From the NCBI GenBank assembly GCA_938003835.1, contig CALKXJ010000012.1, forward strand, positions 248,001-312,000: a stretch of DNA of 64,000 nt, read 5' to 3'. Of this stretch, positions 10,982 to 20,552 are shown piece by piece. Each line of letters begins with the position of its first letter. Within the stretch, counting starts at the first letter, position 1. The DNA comes from an uncultured Bryobacteraceae bacterium. GTDB taxonomy: Bacteria; Acidobacteriota; Terriglobia; Bryobacterales; Bryobacteraceae. The translations under genes were made by a program, and so were the position numbers. The notes beneath the pieces are model-generated. The model saw only the letters and a list, made by a program, of their open reading frames with translations, did not search any database and was not told the origin of the DNA.

Positions 10982-11911
10982 ATGCCCTTCGAAGTCCGCC
11001 CGATGAGCCCCGACGACCGCGCCGAGGTCGCCTCGCTGATCCAGGTCTCGCTCAATTTCTGGTACCGCCTCCACGGCCGCCCCCCGATCTTCTCCGGCGA
11101 CCCGATGGCCGCCGACGTGTTTTTCGAGGTCTATCACGCTCTGGAACCCGGTTGCGGCATCGTCGCCCAAGATACCGCCTCCGGCCTGCTCGCCGGCTCC
11201 TGCTTCTTCCATCCCCGCCCGCACCACGTCGGCCTCGGGATTATGAACGTCCATCCCAACTACTTCGGCACAGGCGCTGGCAGCGCCTTGCTTCGTTACA
11301 TCATCGGGCTGGCCGAGCAGGAAGCCAAGCCCGTGCGCCTGACCTCGAGCGCGCTGAACCTGGATTCCTTCTCCCTCTACACGCGCCACGGCTTCGTGCC
11401 GCGCCAGGTCTTCCAAGACATGGTGCTCGTGGTTCCCGCCGGCGGCTTGAGCGATGCCCAGACCGGCGCCGCGCGCGTGCGCGACGCTACCCTTCACGAC
11501 GTCGCCGCCATGGCTCAGCTCGAGGTGGCCGTCAGCGGCATCAGCCGGGAACTCGATTATCGCTTCGCGATCGAAAACCCCCTGGGCTGTTTCCACGCCT
11601 CCGTCTACGAAGCGGAATCCCGCTCGATCGACGGCTTCGTTCTCTCCTGCACCCACCGCTCCTTCCAGATGGTGGGTCCGTGCGTGGCCCGCTCGGAGAG
11701 GGAAGCTGAGGCGCTGATTCTGGGCGAACTGGACCGCTTCTTCCGGGGCCGGCCGGCCCTGTTTCTGCTGCCGGCAGACCAGGCGGCTCTGGTGGCGCGG
11801 ATGTACGACCGCGGGGCGCGCAACGTCGAGCTGCACCTGTGTCAGGTGCGCGGCTCCTTCAAGCCTTTCGCCGGCGTCAGCACGCCCGCCTTCCTTCCGG
11901 AGACCGGATAG
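10982..11911 (+). CDS. GNAT-family N-acetyltransferase, tandem-domain
   Basis: A 309-residue protein with an N-terminal GNAT domain (about 1-150). Its acetyl-CoA loop is VHPNYFGTGAGSALLRYI and strand 6/7 is LNLDSFSLYTRHGF. A second, more diverged GNAT-like half (about 160-309) lacks a clear acetyl-CoA loop and may be structural. Substrate cannot be read from sequence. It faces the HD-GYP gene and the two overlap tail to tail by 70 bases (11842-11911), so its last 23 codons are antisense to that gene's end. A -10 lies 15 bases before the ATG, with no ribosome-binding site. Confidence 0.8.
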   Translation: MPFEVRPMSPDDRAEVASLIQVSLNFWYRLHGRPPIFSGDPMAADVFFEVYHALEPGCGIVAQDTASGLLAGSCFFHPRPHHVGLGIMNVHPNYFGTGAGSALLRYIIGLAEQEAKPVRLTSSALNLDSFSLYTRHGFVPRQVFQDMVLVVPAGGLSDAQTGAARVRDATLHDVAAMAQLEVAVSGISRELDYRFAIENPLGCFHASVYEAESRSIDGFVLSCTHRSFQMVGPCVARSEREAEALILGELDRFFRGRPALFLLPADQAALVARMYDRGARNVELHLCQVRGSFKPFAGVSTPAFLPETG

Positions 11912-13185
11912 ACGCAGAGCCCGGGCAGCTTCCCTTCCCCTATCCTCAGATCGCCGAGGATGCCCCGGCGCAGATTCTCGAGCGAGGCCGAGATGGGCGT
12001 CGGCTCGGGAACGAAGACGCCGTCCAGGCACACGTCACGGAAGATCGCCACCAGCTCCGGGTCCCGCCAGCCGCGGCGCGCCTCCTGTTCGAGCACGCCG
12101 AGCGCCTCCACCTGCGACATGGCGCCCTTGTAGGGCCGCTCCGTCGTCAGCGCGTCATAGATGTCCGCCAACTGGAGAATCCGGGCGAGCAGGGGAATGC
12201 TCTCTCCTCGCAGGCCGTCCGGATAGCCCGAGCCATCCCAGCGCTCATGATGGTGCCGGATGATCGGCAGCACCGCGGCCAGCGTCCTCATCGGACGGCA
12301 GATCTCCTCGCCGACGATGGGGTGCTGCCGCATCTGCTCCCACTCCTCCCCGGTCAGCGGGCCCGGCTTGAACAGAATCGCGTCGGGGATGGCGACCTTG
12401 CCGATGTCGTGCAGGTATCCGCCGCGATAAAGCGCCACCAGCTCGTCGGCCCCGAGGCCGAGCGCCCTGCCGAGGGCGACGCTGAAGGCCGCCAGGCGCT
12501 GGCAGTGCCCGTGTGTGTAGCGGTCCCGCGCCTCGATCGATTGCGCCAGGGCGAACAGGATCGCCTCGGCCTCCTCCAGCGTATCGAGCGCCGCTTTCTG
12601 CCGCAGCATGGCCCGCACCCGCGTGCGCACGAGCTGGGGATGCAGCGGCTTCGCCAGCAGATCATCGGCCCCCGAGTTTAGGCCCAAGATCTCGTGCTCG
12701 ACGCCGGGAACGCTCGTCACCATCAGCACCGGCACGAGCATCGTTCGGCGGTCGGACTTCAGGCGGGCACAGAGCTCGATGCCATCCATGTCGGGAAGCA
12801 TCATCTCGAGGATGATCAGGTCCACGCTCTCGCGTTCGAGGATGGCCAGGGCCTCGGAAGCCCGCGAGGCCTCCAGAAAAACGCAGCCCTCCTGGCGGAG
12901 CATGGAGCGCAGTACCATGCGGTTGCTGGCCGCTCCGTCGACGATCAACACTTTGGGCCGCCAAGCCCCGGCGAGCACCTCCGGGTGCCAGTCGACCAGG
13001 ACCCGCGTGCCCGCCGCCGTGTGTTCCAAGCCTCTCCCGGGACTCGCGCGCTCATCGGGCGCTTTCGCCATGTCAGAATCGGCGCTCTCCTTGACGCTCG
13101 CGCGGCATTGGGCCGCATCCGCCTCCTGCCCTCTTATCGGACGAAACTCGCCCGAATCGAAACGGGCCGCGTCTTGCGCCATCAA
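11842..13185 (-). CDS. Degenerate receiver domain + HD-GYP (cyclic-di-GMP phosphodiesterase type)
   Basis: 447 residues: a disordered N-terminus (1-75), a receiver domain (about 78-195) and an HD-GYP domain (about 205-400). HD-GYP residues are intact: HD at 259-260 (YLHDIGKVAIPD), HHHE at 311-314 and GYP in GSGYPDGL. These bind metals and hydrolyse c-di-GMP. In the receiver, the phospho-acceptor position is Glu127 (LIILEMMLPDMDG) instead of Asp, and the acidic pair is DG instead of DD; Thr157 and Lys179 remain. The domain therefore probably cannot be phosphorylated and may be locked active or sense something else. Start is TTG (13185) or ATG (13182), after AGGAG located inside the end of the transglycosylase gene. 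Last gene of the envelope operon. Confidence 0.92.
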   Translation of the reverse strand: MMAQDAARFDSGEFRPIRGQEADAAQCRASVKESADSDMAKAPDERASPGRGLEHTAAGTRVLVDWHPEVLAGAWRPKVLIVDGAASNRMVLRSMLRQEGCVFLEASRASEALAILERESVDLIILEMMLPDMDGIELCARLKSDRRTMLVPVLMVTSVPGVEHEILGLNSGADDLLAKPLHPQLVRTRVRAMLRQKAALDTLEEAEAILFALAQSIEARDRYTHGHCQRLAAFSVALGRALGLGADELVALYRGGYLHDIGKVAIPDAILFKPGPLTGEEWEQMRQHPIVGEEICRPMRTLAAVLPIIRHHHERWDGSGYPDGLRGESIPLLARILQLADIYDALTTERPYKGAMSQVEALGVLEQEARRGWRDPELVAIFRDVCLDGVFVPEPTPISASLENLRRGILGDLRIGEGKLPGLCVYPVSGRKAGVLTPAKGLKEPRT

Positions 13186-13187
13186 AA

Positions 13188-13838
13188 TTACTGCTCCTGG
13201 CGATCAAGCCGCTCGAGAATGTCGGCGACGTAGTTCAGCGTCTCTGGAATCGGCGGCAGGCCCTGGAATCGGTCCACCCGCGCCGGCCCGGCATTATAGG
13301 CGCCCAGCGCCAGCGTGATGTCGCCCTGGTACCGCTCGAGCAACTGGCTCAGGAAGCGTGCCCCTGCGGCGATGTTCTCCTTCGGATCGAACGGGTCGTT
13401 GACGCCCAGCTCGGCCGCCGTCTCCGGCATCAACTGCATCAGCCCCTGCGCGCCTTTTCGCGAGACGGCGCAGGGACGAAAGCCCGACTCCCGGTCGATG
13501 ATCGCCCGCAACAGCTCTGGCGTGACCCCCTCACGCCGGGCGACCTCTTCGATGTAGTCCTTGAGCTCGTGCGGGGGAATCGGCAGACAGTCTCCGCCGC
13601 CCGGCTCCGAGTCGGCCTCCGGGGCCGGACCTGCCCACGGCACGGTGAACCAGTCCGAGCCGGAGGGCGCGGCCGAGGAGGACACCTGCATTCGAACCGA
13701 TTCCTTCTGGCGGGCGATCGCGGCCTCCATCATCGCGCGCGCAGCCTGGTAGGGATCGGGCGGATCTCCACCCAGCGCAGGGCCGGCGATCAGCCATCCG
13801 AGCAGAACAGGTCCGGCGCGTCGCACCAACCTCTTCAT
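13188..13838 (-). CDS. Lytic transglycosylase (Slt-type, GH23-like)
   Basis: Exported 216-residue enzyme predicted to cleave peptidoglycan glycan strands. Signal peptide about 1-23, a linker rich in Ser/Pro/Gly, then the SLT fold (about 90-205). Catalytic Glu117 lies in IIDRESGF, followed by GAQGLMQLMPETAAELG and ALGAYNAGPARVDRF, the three hallmark motifs. A lone Cys (about 84) is not in a lipobox. It starts 38 bases after the glycoside-hydrolase-like gene ends, and its stop overlaps the ribosome-binding site of the HD-GYP gene. In this operon it could open peptidoglycan for an envelope-spanning apparatus; that is inference. Confidence 0.9.
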   Translation of the reverse strand: MKRLVRRAGPVLLGWLIAGPALGGDPPDPYQAARAMMEAAIARQKESVRMQVSSSAAPSGSDWFTVPWAGPAPEADSEPGGGDCLPIPPHELKDYIEEVARREGVTPELLRAIIDRESGFRPCAVSRKGAQGLMQLMPETAAELGVNDPFDPKENIAAGARFLSQLLERYQGDITLALGAYNAGPARVDRFQGLPPIPETLNYVADILERLDRQEQ

Positions 13839-13876
13839 CGGACGGCCGGGCGTTCGGCTTGAGGGTCTTAGGAAGG

Positions 13877-15928
13877 CTAACGGGCAGCCGAAGCCTGCCA
13901 GGCCTCCAGGCTCACCAGGTGCTGCCCACGCGGCAGGAAGAGAATGACTCGGTCGCCGTCCTCGAGAAGGCGCACCCCCGCCGGCTCGCCGTCGATCTCC
14001 ACATGCGCCGGGCGCCGCCCGAGCACGGCGATGGCGCGCGAGTCGCTCTCATAGGCGAACTCCAGCCCTCCAGGCGTCACCGCCGCGCTGCGTAGCTCGC
14101 CGTTGAAGTCCAGCAACACGAGCGGCGGCATCTCCCCGGCCGGCTCGAGGGCGTGTGCGCCCCCGGGGAGCCAGACCGTCTCTCCGTCGAAGAAGGGCCA
14201 CAGGCGCCCGTTGAGCTTGGCCGCCCCCCGCCAGGGCACGCCCACACCGAAACGCGACTCCACCACCAGGCGGTTCTGGGCCTGCGCCACCCGCCGCACC
14301 GCCGCCATCGCCGAGGGCAGCAGCCCCAGGTCGGCCGCCAGGATAGAGTGCTCGGCGTAGACCGCGACGCGGGCGAAGGCTTGCGAGGCGACGTGCAGCA
14401 GCTGGTAAAGTTCGATCCCCGTCTGTTGCCGCGTCGGGTAGACGTCCTGATAGCGCTCGACGATGTTGATGTCGATCGCCAGCTTCTCGGCATGCGGCGT
14501 CAGCGGCTCGTAACGCCGCGCGATCTCCAGATACCGTTTCGGCCCCAGATGCCAGACCGTCGCGGGATCCTCGATGAGGAACGTGAAGCGATGGCGGTCG
14601 AGCAGCGGCAGAAGCGCGGCGGCGTCAGCGCCGATCAGATCGCGCATCCGGGTGTCGAAACGGTCATCGACGTGCGTCAGCACCAGATCGAGGTGCGGCT
14701 TGCGGCTCCGTGCCCGCTCGATCTCGGCGATCCACTCCTGCTGCATCTGCCGCGCCAGATGAGCCCGGTAGTCGAGAAACTGCCGCAATCCTTCCGGGTT
14801 CTTCGAGTGATGCCGCGGCGAGCCGGCGCGGAACAGCTCGAGCGGATCAAAGCCCGCAGCCGCCTGAAAATCTCGCCGCACGTCCTCGTTCATCGGGGTG
14901 AACCGCGCCGGATTCTCGTGCCCCTCGAGCGATTCGAAATAGAGCTCGGCCAGGTTGACTCCGTCCCAATCGAAACGGTCGATCAGCTCGTGGATCCCGC
15001 GCGCGACCGCGGCGTAGCAGTCGCGGTTGGCCAGGTTCATCAGCTTGCGCCAGTCGAGAAACGCGTCCTGGAGCACGGCCGTCTTCTCGCGCCAGTGGGG
15101 ATGCGCGTTCCAGAAGGCTTCGCTCACGTGCGGCAGCTCGAGCCAGGCGTAAACCAGGATCGCCTGCCGGTGACAGGCCTCGATCAGTGCGCGCAGCCAG
15201 GCGTCGCGCTGCGCCTCCGGCTCGAAGTAGTGCCAGGCGGCGACCTGAAGGGCATGGATGCCGGCCCGCCGCCACCGCCTGGCGAAATAGTCCAGATCGA
15301 CGCGGCTGCGGTAAGGCCCATCGAAGAAGGCCCACAGCCGCCGGGAGCGGAACGGAGGTTCGAAGCCCAGGTCCCGCAATGCATGAAACAGATACGGGAA
15401 GCGCTCATAGCCGTGCTCGCCGGGGGTCACGACAACCCAGAGAACGCCCCCGGCGCCCAGCCGGAGGCCGGCCACGAGCGGCGAGCCGCTCCAGCGCTCT
15501 TTGGCGAAGACGCGCGCCCCTTCGGGCAACGCAAAGACGGGCAGTTCGAGCTGCCGCTCCCAGATGATGCCCAGCTTGGGATCGTGCACGTCGAGGACGT
15601 TGCGCACGGGTACGCGCTGCCCGGTCGGCCGGAAGCCGAAAGCCGCAGCCAGCTCCGTGTCTCCTTCGAGCACCAGGATGGCGCCCCGCTCGATCCGCTC
15701 CCGCCATGCCGGCGCCAGCTCAGCGCCCCCGGTGCGGACGACGAAGACGCCGGAATGCCCCCCGGCCTCCGGCATCAGCCCGAGCGCGGAAAAGATTTCG
15801 GGCCAGGGTCCCGGTTCGTCGCCGGCCACGTGATAGAAGAAGGTCGGCCGCGGTGCGGGCGTCTCCGCGGCGACGGCGACGGCTCCGGCCAGCACCGGCG
15901 CGAGCAGAAGGCTACCGGCTGAACGCAT
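13877..15928 (-). CDS. Exported glycoside-hydrolase-like TIM-barrel protein
   Basis: 683 residues with a signal peptide (1-21). The N-terminal part (about 25-185) resembles a Rossmann/flavodoxin-like or glutamine-amidotransferase-like domain (GVFVVRTGGAEL, GAILVLEGDTELAA). The central part (about 195-480) looks like the TIM barrel of glycoside-hydrolase-like families: LDYFARRWRRAGIHALQVAAWH, ILVYAWLELP, FDWDGVNLAELYFE, DLVLTHVDDRFD. The C-terminal part (about 540-683) is beta-rich. The order resembles the hydrolase halves of exopolysaccharide proteins such as PelA and PgaB, but I cannot assign it to a named family. It overlaps the end of the TPR/beta-barrel gene by 17 bases. Likely role: processing of an exported glycan (inferred). 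Confidence 0.6.
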   Translation of the reverse strand: MRSAGSLLLAPVLAGAVAVAAETPAPRPTFFYHVAGDEPGPWPEIFSALGLMPEAGGHSGVFVVRTGGAELAPAWRERIERGAILVLEGDTELAAAFGFRPTGQRVPVRNVLDVHDPKLGIIWERQLELPVFALPEGARVFAKERWSGSPLVAGLRLGAGGVLWVVVTPGEHGYERFPYLFHALRDLGFEPPFRSRRLWAFFDGPYRSRVDLDYFARRWRRAGIHALQVAAWHYFEPEAQRDAWLRALIEACHRQAILVYAWLELPHVSEAFWNAHPHWREKTAVLQDAFLDWRKLMNLANRDCYAAVARGIHELIDRFDWDGVNLAELYFESLEGHENPARFTPMNEDVRRDFQAAAGFDPLELFRAGSPRHHSKNPEGLRQFLDYRAHLARQMQQEWIAEIERARSRKPHLDLVLTHVDDRFDTRMRDLIGADAAALLPLLDRHRFTFLIEDPATVWHLGPKRYLEIARRYEPLTPHAEKLAIDINIVERYQDVYPTRQQTGIELYQLLHVASQAFARVAVYAEHSILAADLGLLPSAMAAVRRVAQAQNRLVVESRFGVGVPWRGAAKLNGRLWPFFDGETVWLPGGAHALEPAGEMPPLVLLDFNGELRSAAVTPGGLEFAYESDSRAIAVLGRRPAHVEIDGEPAGVRLLEDGDRVILFLPRGQHLVSLEAWQASAAR

Positions 15929-17945
15929 ACCACATTCCTCCCCGCAGGTCGTAATAATCGCGCCCGCGCGGATGGCCTTCGATCAGGTAACGACCGCGAA
16001 GCGCATCCACGGTAAAGAACATCGAGCGCGGCATCGACTTCCAGCGAAAGCGAAAGCCCGGGCCGGATTCGACGAAGTTCGCCCAGATCTGCCGCTTGGA
16101 ATCCACCGTCAGGTTGCCGTTCCAGTAGAGCTGCGTCTCCAGGCCCCCAACGGCCGCCGCCACCGGAAGGGTGTAGCCGAAGCGGTTGCGAAAGCTGCCC
16201 AGCACGGTGTTGGAAAACCGGCTCATGAAGACCGCGTCGAGGAAGCTGTCAAAGAACGGCCCGGGGGATTCCCCGCCCAGGAAGTTTCCCCAGCCGCGGC
16301 CGACCGAGAAGCCGCCCCGATAGTCCGGCGCCATGCGCCCCGGGCGGTCGCGCCGGTTCAAATAACTGACATCGGAGCCGGCCTCGGCCCAGGCGAACAT
16401 CCCCTTCCAGAGCTTGGTGCGGATGCCCACGCCGAAGATGAACGAGCTTTCCGAGAGATATTGCGGCACCACCGAGCCGACCGTCTGGCGCGCGTCGCCG
16501 GTAAAGCGCACGGATATGTATGGCAGCAGGGGAACCCGGCCCAGGCTGACTTCGGTCTTCACCTGCGCGTAGGCGAACAGGTCGCGCCAGCGGGTCGAAT
16601 ACAACGGCAGCGACCAGAATGTCGTGCGAAGGCGCGCCAGCGACGGCCGCAGGGTCCGGTAGGAGCGCTCGGCCTGCTCGGCAATCGACGGATCCGGGCT
16701 GCGCCGCGCCAGGTCGAACCACAGGAGCGCCTCCTCATCCCGGCGTAACAGATTGTAAGTCTGCCCCAGCTTGAGCATCACTTCGAAATCCACCGGATCG
16801 TTCAGGTGTGCAATGGTGAAATACTTCATCGCGTCTTTGAGATAACCGGCCTGGTAGCTCTTCTCGGCCAGCACCTTGGCCTCGACCGAGACCTTCTTGG
16901 GCGGAGTTTCCGGCGGTCGCTTCAAGCTCTGGGGCAGGTGCAGGACCTGGCGAACCCGATCGGCCAGCTCCTCGTTGCCGGAGGCGAGCACGCGCTCGAG
17001 CAGCCGCCTGGCGCCCTCGTAGTCCTTCCGCCCCAGGTGCAGGAATCCTAACTGCGCCACCGAGAGCAGGTCGTCCGGCGCCGCCTCGACGATGCGGCGG
17101 AACTCCTCTTCGGCCGCCTCCCGGTTGCCCATCGCCAGGTGCAGGTAAGCCAGCTCCCGGCGCAGATCGACGTTGGTGGGATCGAGTTCCAGGGCACGCT
17201 CGAACTCGTAGACATAAGGGTAGCGCGCGTCGAGCAACGCCCGCGCCTCTTCGGCGACGCGCGGCTCGGCGCCGCGCGAGGCGGCCAGCAGCGCCGCATG
17301 GGCCTGCTCGGCGCGCCCCAACTGCTGGAGAATGCGCCCCATGTCGAGCAGAAGGCGCCGCCGGTCGGGACGCAGCCGCCAGGCGTACTGATAGTGCTGG
17401 AGCGCCAACTCGAGCTCGTCGCGCTGCTCGGCCAGCCGGGCCAGCTCCCAGTGCGCGCTGAAGTTGTTCGGATCCATCTCCACTACGCGCTTCCACCGGG
17501 CGATGCCCTCCCGGAGCGGGCGGTCGACGTTCTCGAAGGCTTGCTCCGCCGTCCGCCGCGCGTCGCCTTCTCCGGTGCGGCGAACGCGGTCGAAGATCCG
17601 CCGCGCCATCGCCTCCTGGCGCGTTTCAAAACACAGGAACGCGTACTCGAGCGCCACGTGGTGGTCGCTCGGATCGAGCCTCATCGCCTCGCCGAACTCG
17701 TCGCGGGCGGCCTCGTTCTCTCCGATCTTGAGCAGCGTGTAGGCCAGGTCCTTCCGAATGGAGGCGCGGTCTGGCGCCGCTTCGACGGCCTGGCGGAAAG
17801 CGGCGACGGCCGCATCATAATCCTTCACCCGCAGGGCGGCGTAGGCCTCCTCCAGGTGGGCATAGGCGGAGTCCTGCTCCACCACAACCGCCGGCGCACG
17901 CGCCGCCAGCACCGCAGCGAGAAACAGAGATTGGGCACTACGCAT
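15912..17945 (-). CDS. TPR protein with C-terminal outer-membrane beta-barrel-like domain
   Basis: 677 residues. Signal peptide about 1-18, then roughly ten TPR repeats (about 25-430; for example SAYAHLEEAYAALRVKDYD and AHWELARLAEQRDELELAL). The C-terminal 230 residues are rich in alternating aromatic strands (PYISVRFTGDARQTV, FAWAEAGSDVSYLNR, GLETQLYWNGNLTVD) and end in MWYAFSR, as in an outer-membrane barrel. This TPR-then-barrel plan resembles PgaA (poly-GlcNAc export) and NfrA. First gene of a four-gene operon with a glycosidase-like protein, lytic transglycosylase and HD-GYP protein. No glycosyltransferase or synthase lies next to it. Confidence 0.7.
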   Translation of the reverse strand: MRSAQSLFLAAVLAARAPAVVVEQDSAYAHLEEAYAALRVKDYDAAVAAFRQAVEAAPDRASIRKDLAYTLLKIGENEAARDEFGEAMRLDPSDHHVALEYAFLCFETRQEAMARRIFDRVRRTGEGDARRTAEQAFENVDRPLREGIARWKRVVEMDPNNFSAHWELARLAEQRDELELALQHYQYAWRLRPDRRRLLLDMGRILQQLGRAEQAHAALLAASRGAEPRVAEEARALLDARYPYVYEFERALELDPTNVDLRRELAYLHLAMGNREAAEEEFRRIVEAAPDDLLSVAQLGFLHLGRKDYEGARRLLERVLASGNEELADRVRQVLHLPQSLKRPPETPPKKVSVEAKVLAEKSYQAGYLKDAMKYFTIAHLNDPVDFEVMLKLGQTYNLLRRDEEALLWFDLARRSPDPSIAEQAERSYRTLRPSLARLRTTFWSLPLYSTRWRDLFAYAQVKTEVSLGRVPLLPYISVRFTGDARQTVGSVVPQYLSESSFIFGVGIRTKLWKGMFAWAEAGSDVSYLNRRDRPGRMAPDYRGGFSVGRGWGNFLGGESPGPFFDSFLDAVFMSRFSNTVLGSFRNRFGYTLPVAAAVGGLETQLYWNGNLTVDSKRQIWANFVESGPGFRFRWKSMPRSMFFTVDALRGRYLIEGHPRGRDYYDLRGGMWYAFSR

Positions 17946-18041: not shown

Positions 18042-18278
18042 TTACTCGGCCGAGCTCGCAGCCTTCTTCGTCTTGGGACGGCGGGCCTTGGTCCGGTTCG
18101 GCGGCTGGCGGTCGATCTTCTTCAGGTTCGGGACAACAATCGAGGAAATGAACTTCTTCTGTCCGTGGTCATCGAAGTGAATGACCACATACTCGTCATC
18201 GCAGGAAACGACGGTGCCGCAGCCGAATTTCGGGTGTTCGATCTGTGCGTTCTGAGCGAATGGCGGCTTGGGGGCCAT
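18042..18278 (-). CDS. Small stand-alone Tudor/SH3-like protein (UvrD/PcrA C-terminal-like)
   Basis: 78 residues. Residues 10-52 (IEHPKFGCGTVVSCDDEYV, then VIHFDDHGQKKF and VVPNLKKI) match the small beta-barrel at the C-terminus of UvrD/PcrA helicases, which contacts RNA polymerase. No helicase is attached here. The tail (about 55-78) is strongly basic (RTKARRPKTKKA) and could bind nucleic acid. A clear sigma70-like promoter and AGAGG ribosome-binding site precede it. Function unknown; RNA-polymerase or nucleic-acid binding is inference. Confidence 0.7.
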   Translation of the reverse strand: MAPKPPFAQNAQIEHPKFGCGTVVSCDDEYVVIHFDDHGQKKFISSIVVPNLKKIDRQPPNRTKARRPKTKKAASSAE

Positions 18279-18301
18279 GAAAGGGTGCCTCTTTGTTTTT
18301 T

Positions 18302-18331
18302 ATTGTAGCAATTTGCCGCAGCCTGTGTCTA
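18302..18331 (-). promoter_or_regulatory. Sigma70-type promoter of the small Tudor-like gene
   Basis: Reverse-strand TAGACA (18326-18331), an 18-base spacer, then TACAAT (18302-18307), in a locally A/T-rich stretch. Transcription should start about 18 bases before the ATG, leaving room for the AGAGG ribosome-binding site. One of the best -35/-10 pairs in the window. Confidence 0.6.
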
Positions 18332-18353
18332 ATTGGCCCCCGCCGCCGAAATC

Positions 18354-19952
18354 TCAACTCCGGCCCGCGACTTTCTTGCGGCGCCGCCGGTCCCCTCCCC
18401 TTCCCGGAACGATCGGCTCGCTCGGGACCGCCCACCGGCCCAGGTGGTAAGTCCTCCGGTAGCCGGCCGTCAGATTGGCGATCTCGACGGTGACGACTCC
18501 GCCGGCGCTGCAAGAGTAAGACTCCTCGATCTCCTGGCTCCAGGCTCCGTCCCAGCGCGCAATCGGCGCCGCCGTCAGGTCGCTCGCATCCCGTAAGGCG
18601 GGGTCAAAGGGGAACAGGATCTCGTCCCAGATCGTGATATCTCCAAGCGGGCGGCCGTCTTCGGCCCGGTGACTGCATTCGAGATACCGGAAGTGTCCGA
18701 CGTTATGCGCCGGGCGGTAGCGCCGCGACACCTTCAGGCTCGCCTCGCCCGCGGCCGGCAGGGGTGTCCCCTTGGCGAACAGGGGATCGAAGACGATCGT
18801 GCGGCCGCAGTCGGCCTCGCGCCAGACGCCGAAGTAACGGGTAAAGGTGTCGCGCAGGACGTAGCCGGCCTGCTCGTCGGCCTGGATCGCCAGGCCGATG
18901 GCGGTTGCCGAATACATGTAAGTGGAGCGTTTCACCCGCCGGCCGAAGACCTCGCGCAAAGCGCGCGGCACCAGCGGCAGCTCGCTCGCTCCCCCCGTAA
19001 CATAGAGTAAGTCCGGTTCCGCCTGGTGTGTTTCGAGCAGGTCCTTGACGGCGTGCACCGTTTCCTCGACCAGCGGGCGGCAGCGCTCATAGAAGGCGTC
19101 CACGCTGATCGTCACCGGCTCCCAGCTCGGTTCCAGCACGCCGAGATCGACGGCGATGCGCCGGGTGTTCGGGTGCAAGGCTTCCTTCTTCAGGCGGCAC
19201 TCTTCGTGGAGCCGAAACCACTGCGCCTGGGTGAGCGCCTCGCGCTCCTCAGCGCCGATGCCGGCCTCCTCGAGCGCCATCTCGGCCAGCACGTTGTCGA
19301 AATCATCGCCGCCGAGCGTGGGAATCCCCTCGGAGGCGATCACAGAGAACTGGCGCTCCTCGGTGCTGACCAGCGAGGCATCGAAGGTGCCTCCGCCCAG
19401 ATCGTAAACCAGCAGCAGCCCCTTGCCGCGCGCCGGGAGCTTGCCTTGGTTGGCGTGGACGAACTCGATCGCCGCCGCAGAGGGTTCATTGAGCAGGCCC
19501 AGCACTTCGAAACCCGCGCGGCGAAACCCTTCAACGGTCAGGAACCGCTGATTGCCGTTGGCGTTGGCGGGCACGCCGAGCATCACCTCGAGCGGCTCTC
19601 CGCCCGGCGCCTCGAGCGTCGAGCGCTCCAGCAGCGCCGCCTTCAGCGAAGCCGCCAGCTCGGTAAGCAGCTCGAGCATCCGCAGGCGCTCGCCGGCGAT
19701 CTCCAGGATCGTATGCGGCCCGGCATCCTCCAAATATCGCTTCAGCGACCGGATGATGGTCCAGCCCTCTTCCTGCTGGCTCTCCCAGGCCTCCCAGCCG
19801 TAACGCCGCTCGGGGCCGCGCACGGCCACCAGCGGCGGATACCAGCTCGTGCGCTCGCCTTGCGGCGTCTCGAAGCTGATGACCGGATAGTTGCCGCGGT
19901 CGACGAGCGCCACGACGATCCGCGTCGTGCCGAAGTCGATCCCCAACCTCAT
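18354..19952 (-). CDS. Hsp70/DnaK-family ATPase with reduced C-terminus
   Basis: 532 residues. The actin-like nucleotide-binding domain covers about 1-370: phosphate-1 LGIDFGTTRIVVALV, phosphate-2 LLLVYDLGGGTFDASL, adenosine motif LLYVTGGASELPLVPRAL, and NEPSAAAIEF. A beta-rich substrate-binding-like part (about 385-510) follows, but the alpha-helical lid of DnaK is missing. The protein ends in a basic tail (RGGDRRRRKK). It is therefore a specialised Hsp70, not the housekeeping DnaK. Upstream on the same strand, 34 bases away, is a SlyD-like isomerase, so the two probably form a folding pair. No DnaJ or GrpE is visible in the window. Confidence 0.85.
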   Translation of the reverse strand: MRLGIDFGTTRIVVALVDRGNYPVISFETPQGERTSWYPPLVAVRGPERRYGWEAWESQQEEGWTIIRSLKRYLEDAGPHTILEIAGERLRMLELLTELAASLKAALLERSTLEAPGGEPLEVMLGVPANANGNQRFLTVEGFRRAGFEVLGLLNEPSAAAIEFVHANQGKLPARGKGLLLVYDLGGGTFDASLVSTEERQFSVIASEGIPTLGGDDFDNVLAEMALEEAGIGAEEREALTQAQWFRLHEECRLKKEALHPNTRRIAVDLGVLEPSWEPVTISVDAFYERCRPLVEETVHAVKDLLETHQAEPDLLYVTGGASELPLVPRALREVFGRRVKRSTYMYSATAIGLAIQADEQAGYVLRDTFTRYFGVWREADCGRTIVFDPLFAKGTPLPAAGEASLKVSRRYRPAHNVGHFRYLECSHRAEDGRPLGDITIWDEILFPFDPALRDASDLTAAPIARWDGAWSQEIEESYSCSAGGVVTVEIANLTAGYRRTYHLGRWAVPSEPIVPGRGGDRRRRKKVAGRS

Positions 19953-19986
19953 GGGAACGCCTCGCCTCGGTGGAGGCCCTGCCGGC

Positions 19987-20448
19987 TCACGCCTCCACGA
20001 GTTCGACCAGCTCGACCTCCATGGTCAGCTCCTTCCCTGCCAGGGGGTGGTTGCCATCGATGGTTACCGTCGTCTGGGTGAGCCCCGTGACGCGGACGTC
20101 AGACTCATGCCCGTCGGCGTGCCGGACGCGCAAGGAGGTTCCGATCTCCAGTTCCAGCTCCGGCGGGACCATGCTCCGGTCGAGCGTCGCCGTCATCTCC
20201 TCGTGGTAGGGGCCGAATGCCTTTTCGGGCGCAATCTTGAAGGTACGCGATTCGCCGACCTTCATTCCCAGCACCCCCTCCTGAAGTCCTGGAATAATTT
20301 GGGATTCTCCGACCACGAATTCGAGCGGTTCGCGGTGGCGCGTGGTGGCGAAAATCGTATCGTCCTCCAAGCGGCAGGTGTAATGAATCCGGACCGTATC
20401 CCCCGGCTTGACAGCGGGGACGGCATCCGGTTGCAAGTTAGGTTCCAT
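19987..20448 (-). CDS. FKBP-type peptidyl-prolyl isomerase (SlyD-like)
   Basis: 153 residues from the ATG at 20448 (GGGGA upstream). An ATG at 20481 would add 11 residues but has no ribosome-binding site. The FKBP core is split as in SlyD: VKPGDTVRIHYTCRLEDD, FVVGESQIIPGLQEGVLGMK, then the insert-in-flap chaperone domain (about 75-125; AFGPYHEEM, LRVRHADGHESDVRV), then NHPLAGKELTMEVELVE. The metal-binding His-rich tail of E. coli SlyD is absent. Cytoplasmic, as no signal peptide is seen. Probably co-transcribed with the Hsp70-like gene. Confidence 0.92.
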   Translation of the reverse strand: MEPNLQPDAVPAVKPGDTVRIHYTCRLEDDTIFATTRHREPLEFVVGESQIIPGLQEGVLGMKVGESRTFKIAPEKAFGPYHEEMTATLDRSMVPPELELEIGTSLRVRHADGHESDVRVTGLTQTTVTIDGNHPLAGKELTMEVELVELVEA

Positions 20449-20552
20449 GATTCCCCATCTTCCCAGCCCGAGGTGGTTCATGTCAAAGAGGAGATGTAGA
20501 AAATCCAGATCCGAATGGGGTAAGCTGGTCGCGAAACCATCATCTGGCCGTG

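Follow-up and report, generated by a model that had tools for sequence, protein, structure and literature searches.

A conserved channel and hydrolase gene pair in Bryobacteraceae as the probable outer half of a dispersed Nfr-type exopolysaccharide system

On one strand of a contig from an uncultured Bryobacteraceae bacterium, a gene for a TPR/beta-barrel protein is followed by genes for a glycosidase-like protein, a lytic transglycosylase and an HD-GYP protein. This arrangement raises the question of whether the four genes act as one envelope machine, as proposed in an earlier note on this DNA, and of which polymer and which synthase they could serve. Our analysis narrows the candidate machine to the first two genes, which most likely serve a surface sugar polymer, one as its outer-membrane channel and the other as the matching enzyme that cuts it.

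Gene layout and conservation of the first two genes

ORF calling in the window (the whole 64,000-nucleotide stretch of DNA that was analysed) places four open reading frames on the minus strand. The first (15912-17945, 677 aa) encodes a TPR and beta-barrel outer-membrane protein, the proposed export channel, and the second (13877-15928, 683 aa) a glycosidase-like protein, the proposed periplasmic polymer hydrolase. The third (13188-13838, 216 aa) carries an SLT domain according to Pfam and an ESGF motif, as a lytic transglycosylase, and the fourth (11842-13185, 447 aa) combines a receiver with an HD domain in Pfam, retains HD and GYP motifs, and could provide a c-di-GMP input. The first two frames overlap by 17 bases and the gaps that follow measure 38 and 2 bases; the last would be 5 bases if translation of the HD-GYP gene began one codon later, at an ATG (LMAQ...). 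Codon-position GC is consistent with a genuine gene in all four cases and, together with the frames themselves, bears out the layout given in the earlier note. Within the overlap (15912-15928) the channel gene stops and the hydrolase gene starts, with GGGGAGGA immediately upstream of the hydrolase ATG. The transcript may be longer than the four genes, since three further genes upstream (18042-18278, 18354-19952 and 19987-20481) share the strand and are separated by short gaps of 96, 75 and 34 bases; a scan for promoters and terminators performed no better than on shuffled sequences.

Co-occurrence was analyzed in 61 genomes, comprising the source genome and 60 relatives. The glycosidase is encoded in 41 of these and a strong channel homologue, as read by eye, in 42; the two genes are adjacent in 39 of the 41 glycosidase genomes, and lie on different contigs in the two exceptions (G014 and G057). 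A second set of loci, the best 80 of 265 confirmed, gave a similar picture: both genes were called in 70 loci and were adjacent in every one of them, the exact 17-base overlap being present in 41. In the remaining ten, the simple caller had missed one gene, the contig ended, or there was no adjoining channel call (L157 and L169). The 80 named loci overlap with another set of 46 fetched loci of the pair, 18 of the 80 sharing sequence with it; among the 62 outside that overlap both genes were called in 55, of which 33 have the 17-base overlap. Because it recurs in 41 of 70 loci, the overlap is not a matter of chance. As a side observation, JAHCHE010000044.1 (73% match, Bryobacteraceae) has sequence in common with contig C39 of a genome of the same family, G033.

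The other two genes behave differently from the pair. No transglycosylase was recognised in the 46 loci or in the 80 named loci, many of which end within a few kilobases, so that one lying further away would have escaped notice; G033, which is the closest relative, has its best homologue (61%) on contig C1 and the pair on C39. Used as a second query, the transglycosylase found homologues in 60 of the 61 genomes, and its presence is therefore uninformative about the pair. A gene 61-62% identical to the HD-GYP gene is found near the pair in two of the 80 named loci (L174 and L182), with weaker matches (31-45%) in three more (L161, L070 and L083). Thus, while the channel and hydrolase genes are kept together across relatives, the other two genes adjoin them locally and are not conserved with them, and the four-gene machine has to be rejected: only the first two genes are a conserved unit. 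An unrelated gene of the window, a GNAT gene (10982-11911) taken as the one control, occurs in five of the 61 genomes, including all three of genus g43, and so departs from the co-occurrence pattern.

Predicted folds of the channel and the hydrolase

Pfam recognises TPR repeats in the channel protein, and its structural model (pLDDT 91.5) shows a TPR superhelix followed by a C-terminal domain of 12 strands. The superhelix (residues 28-436; 16638-17864, minus strand) comprises 23 helices of at least four residues each after a signal helix, and the predicted barrel takes up residues 437-677 (15915-16637, minus strand); as the pTM is 0.49, it is uncertain how the two parts are positioned with respect to each other. 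The barrel of the window protein has no Pfam match at E up to 1, and across its family we obtained single weak Pfam matches in three of 40 members and no PDB sequence match. NfrA_C (PF13283) matched none of the 40 members at E up to 1, while positive controls matched, and the PgaA porin model TIGR03939 scored 29.9 bits on the channel against a cut-off of 366.65, its best stretch (249-325) falling in the TPR part only. By sequence, the barrel showed no link to NfrA, PgaA or BcsC. In two fold searches with the whole channel model, the matches listed, at most 50 in each, were TPR, designed-repeat and other helical-repeat proteins, so that the barrel part was barely tested, and aligning slices of the barrel or the TIM domain with individual E. 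coli sequences by hhalign yielded no match, an insensitive comparison that also missed three NfrA_C proteins. The best reading of the sequence comparisons is that the channel lies outside the NfrA and PgaA families and represents a new outer-membrane channel family.

The hydrolase has sub-threshold Pfam matches only (GHL10, 16.0 against a gathering cut-off of 27.9; GHL6, 15.7 against 35). Among the 59 members of its family, however, GHL10 is matched in 48 and GHL6 in 49 at E up to 0.5, with best E-values of 8.5e-09 and 1.5e-06, and the label 'glycosidase-like' is therefore correct. Its model (pLDDT 90.3) shows an N-terminal alpha/beta domain, a TIM barrel (residues 195-545; 14294-15346, minus strand) and a C-terminal beta domain. 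Ranked by E-value, Foldseek put GH66 dextranases on top, with poor superposition. The top VIA-align match was the GH153 domain of PgaB (4p7l, Z 25.8, rmsd 3.8, 318 aligned, residues 195-544): four C-terminal (GH-domain) entries of E. coli PgaB lead at Z 25.1-25.8, followed by Bordetella PgaB at 24.2, with which the first non-PgaB row, a GH42 enzyme at Z 23.7, is tied by the rule of the tool. Two longer, full-length E. coli PgaB entries (Z 22.8 and 22.5) stand among GH42 rows; later neighbours are GH42 enzymes and beta-amylases, and Cwp19 of C. difficile is also among the matches (5oq3, Z 21.0).

By motif alignment rather than superposition, Glu328 (motif DGVNLAE; codon at 14945-14947, minus strand) takes the place of the HD pair of PgaB, whose Asp is described as the proposed catalytic acid, D474 in Bordetella (PMC5933820). 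The residue is invariant in all 59 rows of the hydrolase alignment (A3) and is kept in four of the five DUF2334 fusions (seven in all, see below) that were aligned. Neither a sequence match to PgaB/GH153 nor, by Pfam, a deacetylase domain was found in the protein. These predictions, a TPR and 12-strand fold for one protein and the PgaB GH153 fold for the other, lend support to several earlier proposals for the locus, namely an outer-membrane channel with a TPR scaffold whose barrel falls outside named families (here, by sequence, those of PgaA and NfrA), a glycan hydrolase, and a Pga-like division of labour. On the model, the hydrolase is best read as PgaB-like, with a probable role on a surface polymer.

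Synthase and WecB genes elsewhere in the genome and in the phylum

That no synthase stands next to the pair, as the earlier note had pointed out, is true locally, but an NfrB-type synthase is encoded elsewhere in the same genome; the synthase is missing from the locus most likely because the polymer-making genes lie elsewhere. This NfrB-like protein (contig C8, 470981-472492; 602 aa by our own call) retains the DAED, TED and QxxRW (QRSRW) motifs and an MshEN domain. It scores 415.9 bits on the NfrB model PRK11234, below the cut-off of 1170, and exceeds the cut-offs of PRK14716.1-3 (513.4 against 409) and MshEN (42.7 against 23.1).

An NfrB-type profile matched 40 of the 61 genomes, once in each except G017, where the match is in two pieces. 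Synthase and channel are both present in 39 genomes and both absent in 18; three have the channel only (G009, G019 and G021, 87-91% complete, which carry the pair) and one the synthase only (G003, which has WecB as well and lacks the pair). The synthase therefore occurs in 39 of 42 channel genomes versus one of 19 without the channel, a concordance of 57 in 61 (Fisher p 1.8e-11, in a test that ignores shared ancestry). WecB, the non-hydrolysing UDP-GlcNAc 2-epimerase, scores above cut-off in 41 of the 61 genomes: together with the channel in 38, without it in three (G003, G058 and G060), while 16 genomes have neither and four have the channel only (G010, G016, G022 and G026, the last being 99% complete). 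The source genome has two WecB genes above cut-off, on C2 and C1. In family f3 the same three of 18 genomes (G044, G049 and G053) carry channel, hydrolase, synthase and WecB; the genus of G049, g43, also includes G048 and G050, which have none of the four. The G049 contigs that bear these genes have a GC of 0.60-0.62, like control contigs of that genome, which in this weak test speaks weakly against contamination as their source.

The genes are dispersed. In the source genome the pair lies on contig C12, the synthase on C8 and WecB on C2; in G008, an assembly of two contigs, a single contig carries all of them: the pair (2.79 Mb), the synthase (4.80 Mb) and WecB (4.84 and 5.28 Mb). Since the three are unlinked, no operon ties them together. 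Among 20 synthase loci fetched, the commonest neighbour family recurred in six, and in 12 WecB loci, with WecB called in ten, the recurring neighbours recognised by eye were Clp-like and IF-1-like.

In 297 genomes of the phylum, a profile of the barrel gave five matches, three of them family members. The other two, in distant Acidobacteriota (G261 and G350), are each followed directly by an NfrB-type synthase, which in G350 has 605 aa and in G261 is a 1114-aa protein that combines an NfrB GT2 and a WecB domain with a c-di-GMP motif of MshEN type. The closer channel genes fetched from outside the family (L091, L097, L098, L102 and L104) adjoin the hydrolase, except that the one in G057 has neither hydrolase nor synthase beside it. 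The glycosidase profile matched ten of the 297 genomes, the same three family members and seven others (L189-L195), whose long proteins have the glycosidase as their C-terminal half. DUF2334 was assigned by Pfam to both of the fusions scanned and to a similar G037 protein, and all seven N-terminal halves can be aligned with one another. A GT2 gene directly follows the fusion in five (L189, L191, L193, L194 and L195), the contigs of the other two ending within 0.6 kb; in the one GT2 scanned, the best NCBIfam match was PgaC, below cut-off. WecB, named by Pfam and NCBIfam in L191 only, adjoins the fusion in four loci (L189, L191, L193 and L195) and lies 2.2 kb away in L194.

Eight genomes of the phylum sample have the synthase without this barrel, and all eight have a TPR or barrel gene beside it; PF13283 identifies three of these channels as true NfrA, and another four are members of a small-barrel family seen in three of the fusion loci as well. 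WecB lies in the fetched stretch in six of the eight, the other two contigs measuring 6-7 kb, and DUF2334 in three. A profile of the PgaC-like GT2 from the fusion loci gave no strong match in the source genome and a high score only in G037 (595 bits, the next best among the 61 genomes being 199.7), and a PgaC-like synthase was rejected as partner of the pair. The search for the DUF2334 module found it in one of the 61 genomes (again G037) and not in the source genome; as the hydrolase protein has no deacetylase domain either, no local deacetylase was found.

A dispersed Nfr-type pathway and its alternatives

In E. coli, NfrBA-YbcH is described as making the NGR glycan together with WecB (PMC8669472, PMC8669469), with ManNAc as the proposed sugar (PMC8669472). 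Common to that system and the genes analysed here are an MshEN-containing GT2 synthase, WecB and a channel built of TPR repeats and an outer-membrane barrel, and the channel relatives in G261 and G350 adjoin NfrB. In contrast to E. coli, the barrel has no NfrA_C match, a TIM-barrel hydrolase stands in place of YbcH (DUF4434), for which we found no convincing solved relative, and synthase, WecB and channel are unlinked. With PgaA-PgaB of the PNAG system, as described in PMC5933820, the pair has in common a TPR-barrel protein co-encoded with a periplasmic hydrolase of PgaB GH153 fold; it differs in that a deacetylase domain is lacking, the barrel does not match that of PgaA, the hydrolase and PgaB do not match in sequence, and the synthase is of another type. 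The Acidobacteriota fusions contain the same hydrolase family, with features of their own, namely the DUF2334 half, a C-terminal membrane helix by eye, the PgaC-like GT2 in five of seven and the small barrel in three of seven, and no relative of the TPR-barrel protein was seen in the stretches fetched around them. The system would work like an Nfr or Pga system, outside the NfrA and PgaA channel families and without the deacetylase of PgaB. Our literature searches found no published description of the channel-hydrolase pair.

Taken together, these results suggest a model in which the pair is, with good probability, the export and trimming outer half of a dispersed, synthase-dependent exopolysaccharide machine of Nfr type. 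The NfrB-like MshEN glycosyltransferase on C8 would polymerise an amino-sugar polymer and extrude it across the inner membrane under c-di-GMP control, probably supplied with UDP-ManNAc by the WecB epimerase on C2 (another copy lies on C1). The TPR domain could hold the polymer or its partners in the periplasm, the C-terminal barrel would be the way out through the outer membrane, and the co-translated TIM-barrel hydrolase would trim or clear the polymer in the periplasm, much as PgaB does with its GH domain. In this lineage only, the product of the HD-GYP gene may reduce the c-di-GMP available to the synthase. Polymerisation by an NfrB-like synthase, export through the TPR-barrel protein and PgaB-like trimming make up the simplest account that fits all of the observations. 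What the analysis shows directly is the gene pair, the predicted folds, the co-occurrence and the motifs of the synthase, while export, hydrolysis, the sugar and the control by c-di-GMP are inferred. As to the sugar, WecB, by analogy with E. coli NGR, and the NfrB-WecB fusion suggest ManNAc, which may not be general because WecB is absent in four of the 42 channel genomes.

The PgaB entries at the top of the hydrolase fold comparison also bring to mind a Pga-like system, in which the pair would export and trim poly-GlcNAc made by another GT2, independently of the NfrB-like enzyme; hydrolase relatives do occur as fusions with a DUF2334 half next to a GT2, which in the one scanned has PgaC as its best, below-cut-off match. 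This seems unlikely to us, given that both the DUF2334 module and a high-scoring PgaC-like GT2 are confined to a single genome of the sample, which is not the source genome, and that the two distant relatives of the channel adjoin NfrB instead. We consider it quite improbable that the pair takes up and digests external polysaccharides as a nutrient, its co-occurrence with NfrB and WecB reflecting the shared ancestry of a soil lineage. The GH42 enzymes and beta-amylases that come next among the fold neighbours would agree with such a role, as would Fisher tests uncorrected for phylogeny. A TPR domain joined to a barrel is, however, typical of export channels and not of TonB-type uptake, two barrel relatives adjoin synthases, and genus g43 contains one genome with all four genes and two with none, with no compositional sign of contamination in a weak test.

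In the least probable account, the substrate of the hydrolase is peptidoglycan or some other glycan of the envelope, and the enzyme would join the transglycosylase in opening the wall, to make way for a surface protein or a channel of unrelated function. Cwp19, which has peptidoglycan activity in C. difficile, is among its fold matches and a lytic transglycosylase is the next gene, yet that gene is not conserved with the pair, and hydrolase relatives show linkage to GT2 and WecB. An Nfr-type export and trimming role for the pair therefore remains our preferred reading. Only tentatively would we extend it to a conserved ManNAc-based polymer of this Acidobacteriota family, made by a dispersed Nfr-type pathway with a channel of a new barrel family translation-coupled to a PgaB-like hydrolase.

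Overall, the absence of a synthase beside the channel does not make the channel an orphan. The 2021 Nfr papers describe the sugar as proposed and homologues in other Gram-negatives as sporadic (PMC8669472, PMC8669469). Nfr parts are found here in another phylum and in several arrangements: an NfrB-WecB fusion, NfrB beside a true NfrA or a small barrel, and NfrB unlinked from a new TPR-barrel channel with its PgaB-like hydrolase. These arrangements offer direct tests of the Nfr sugar, and, if this reading is true, the NfrB-MshEN-WecB fusion of G261 would speak for the proposed polymerisation of ManNAc by Nfr systems. They also name a candidate surface polymer for soil bacteria known here mainly from metagenome assemblies.

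Genes around the pair and the receiver of the HD-GYP protein

Ahead of the pair formed by the TPR-barrel and glycosidase-like genes, and separated by short gaps, lie three further minus-strand genes (window 18042-20481), encoding a 78-aa protein, an Hsp70-like protein and an FKBP-like protein, the latter two assigned by eye. The 78-aa gene also falls inside the fetched stretch in 5 of the 80 named loci, which are the best 80 of 265 confirmed. In the receiver domain of the nearby HD-GYP protein (window 11842-13185, minus strand), inspection by eye of the motif DLIILEMMLPD places Glu at the position expected for the phosphorylated Asp, and because of this replacement the receiver may escape phosphorylation.

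Fusion proteins in related loci

Seven loci (L189-L195) encode proteins of ∼1300–1660 aa in which an N-terminal DUF2334 part, named by Pfam in the two scanned, is joined to the glycosidase family (for example, L191:9854-13729). A PgaC-like GT2 adjoins the fusion in five of the seven, and WecB is found near it in 5/7. One genome, G037 (contigs C749/C326 and C230/C200), carries both the TPR-barrel and glycosidase pair and a DUF2334-glycosidase fusion with its GT2.

A different fusion is encoded in the distant Acidobacteriota genome G261. There, directly after a TPR-barrel gene, lies a gene whose single protein product joins three elements: a GT2 of NfrB type, a c-di-GMP motif of MshEN type and an epimerase domain of WecB (L223:9582-12926).

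Small outer-membrane-like proteins

A family of ∼250-aa outer-membrane-like proteins is common to NfrB loci (L285, L289, L290 and L291) and DUF2334-glycosidase loci (L191, L193 and L195), with ∼34–41% identity between the two sets; no Pfam family matched in the three members scanned (L191, L195 and L285). In two genomes, a gene for a 208-aa signal-peptide protein, which by eye looks like a small outer-membrane barrel, directly follows the glycosidase gene of the pair (L170, which has sequence in common with L066, and L145).
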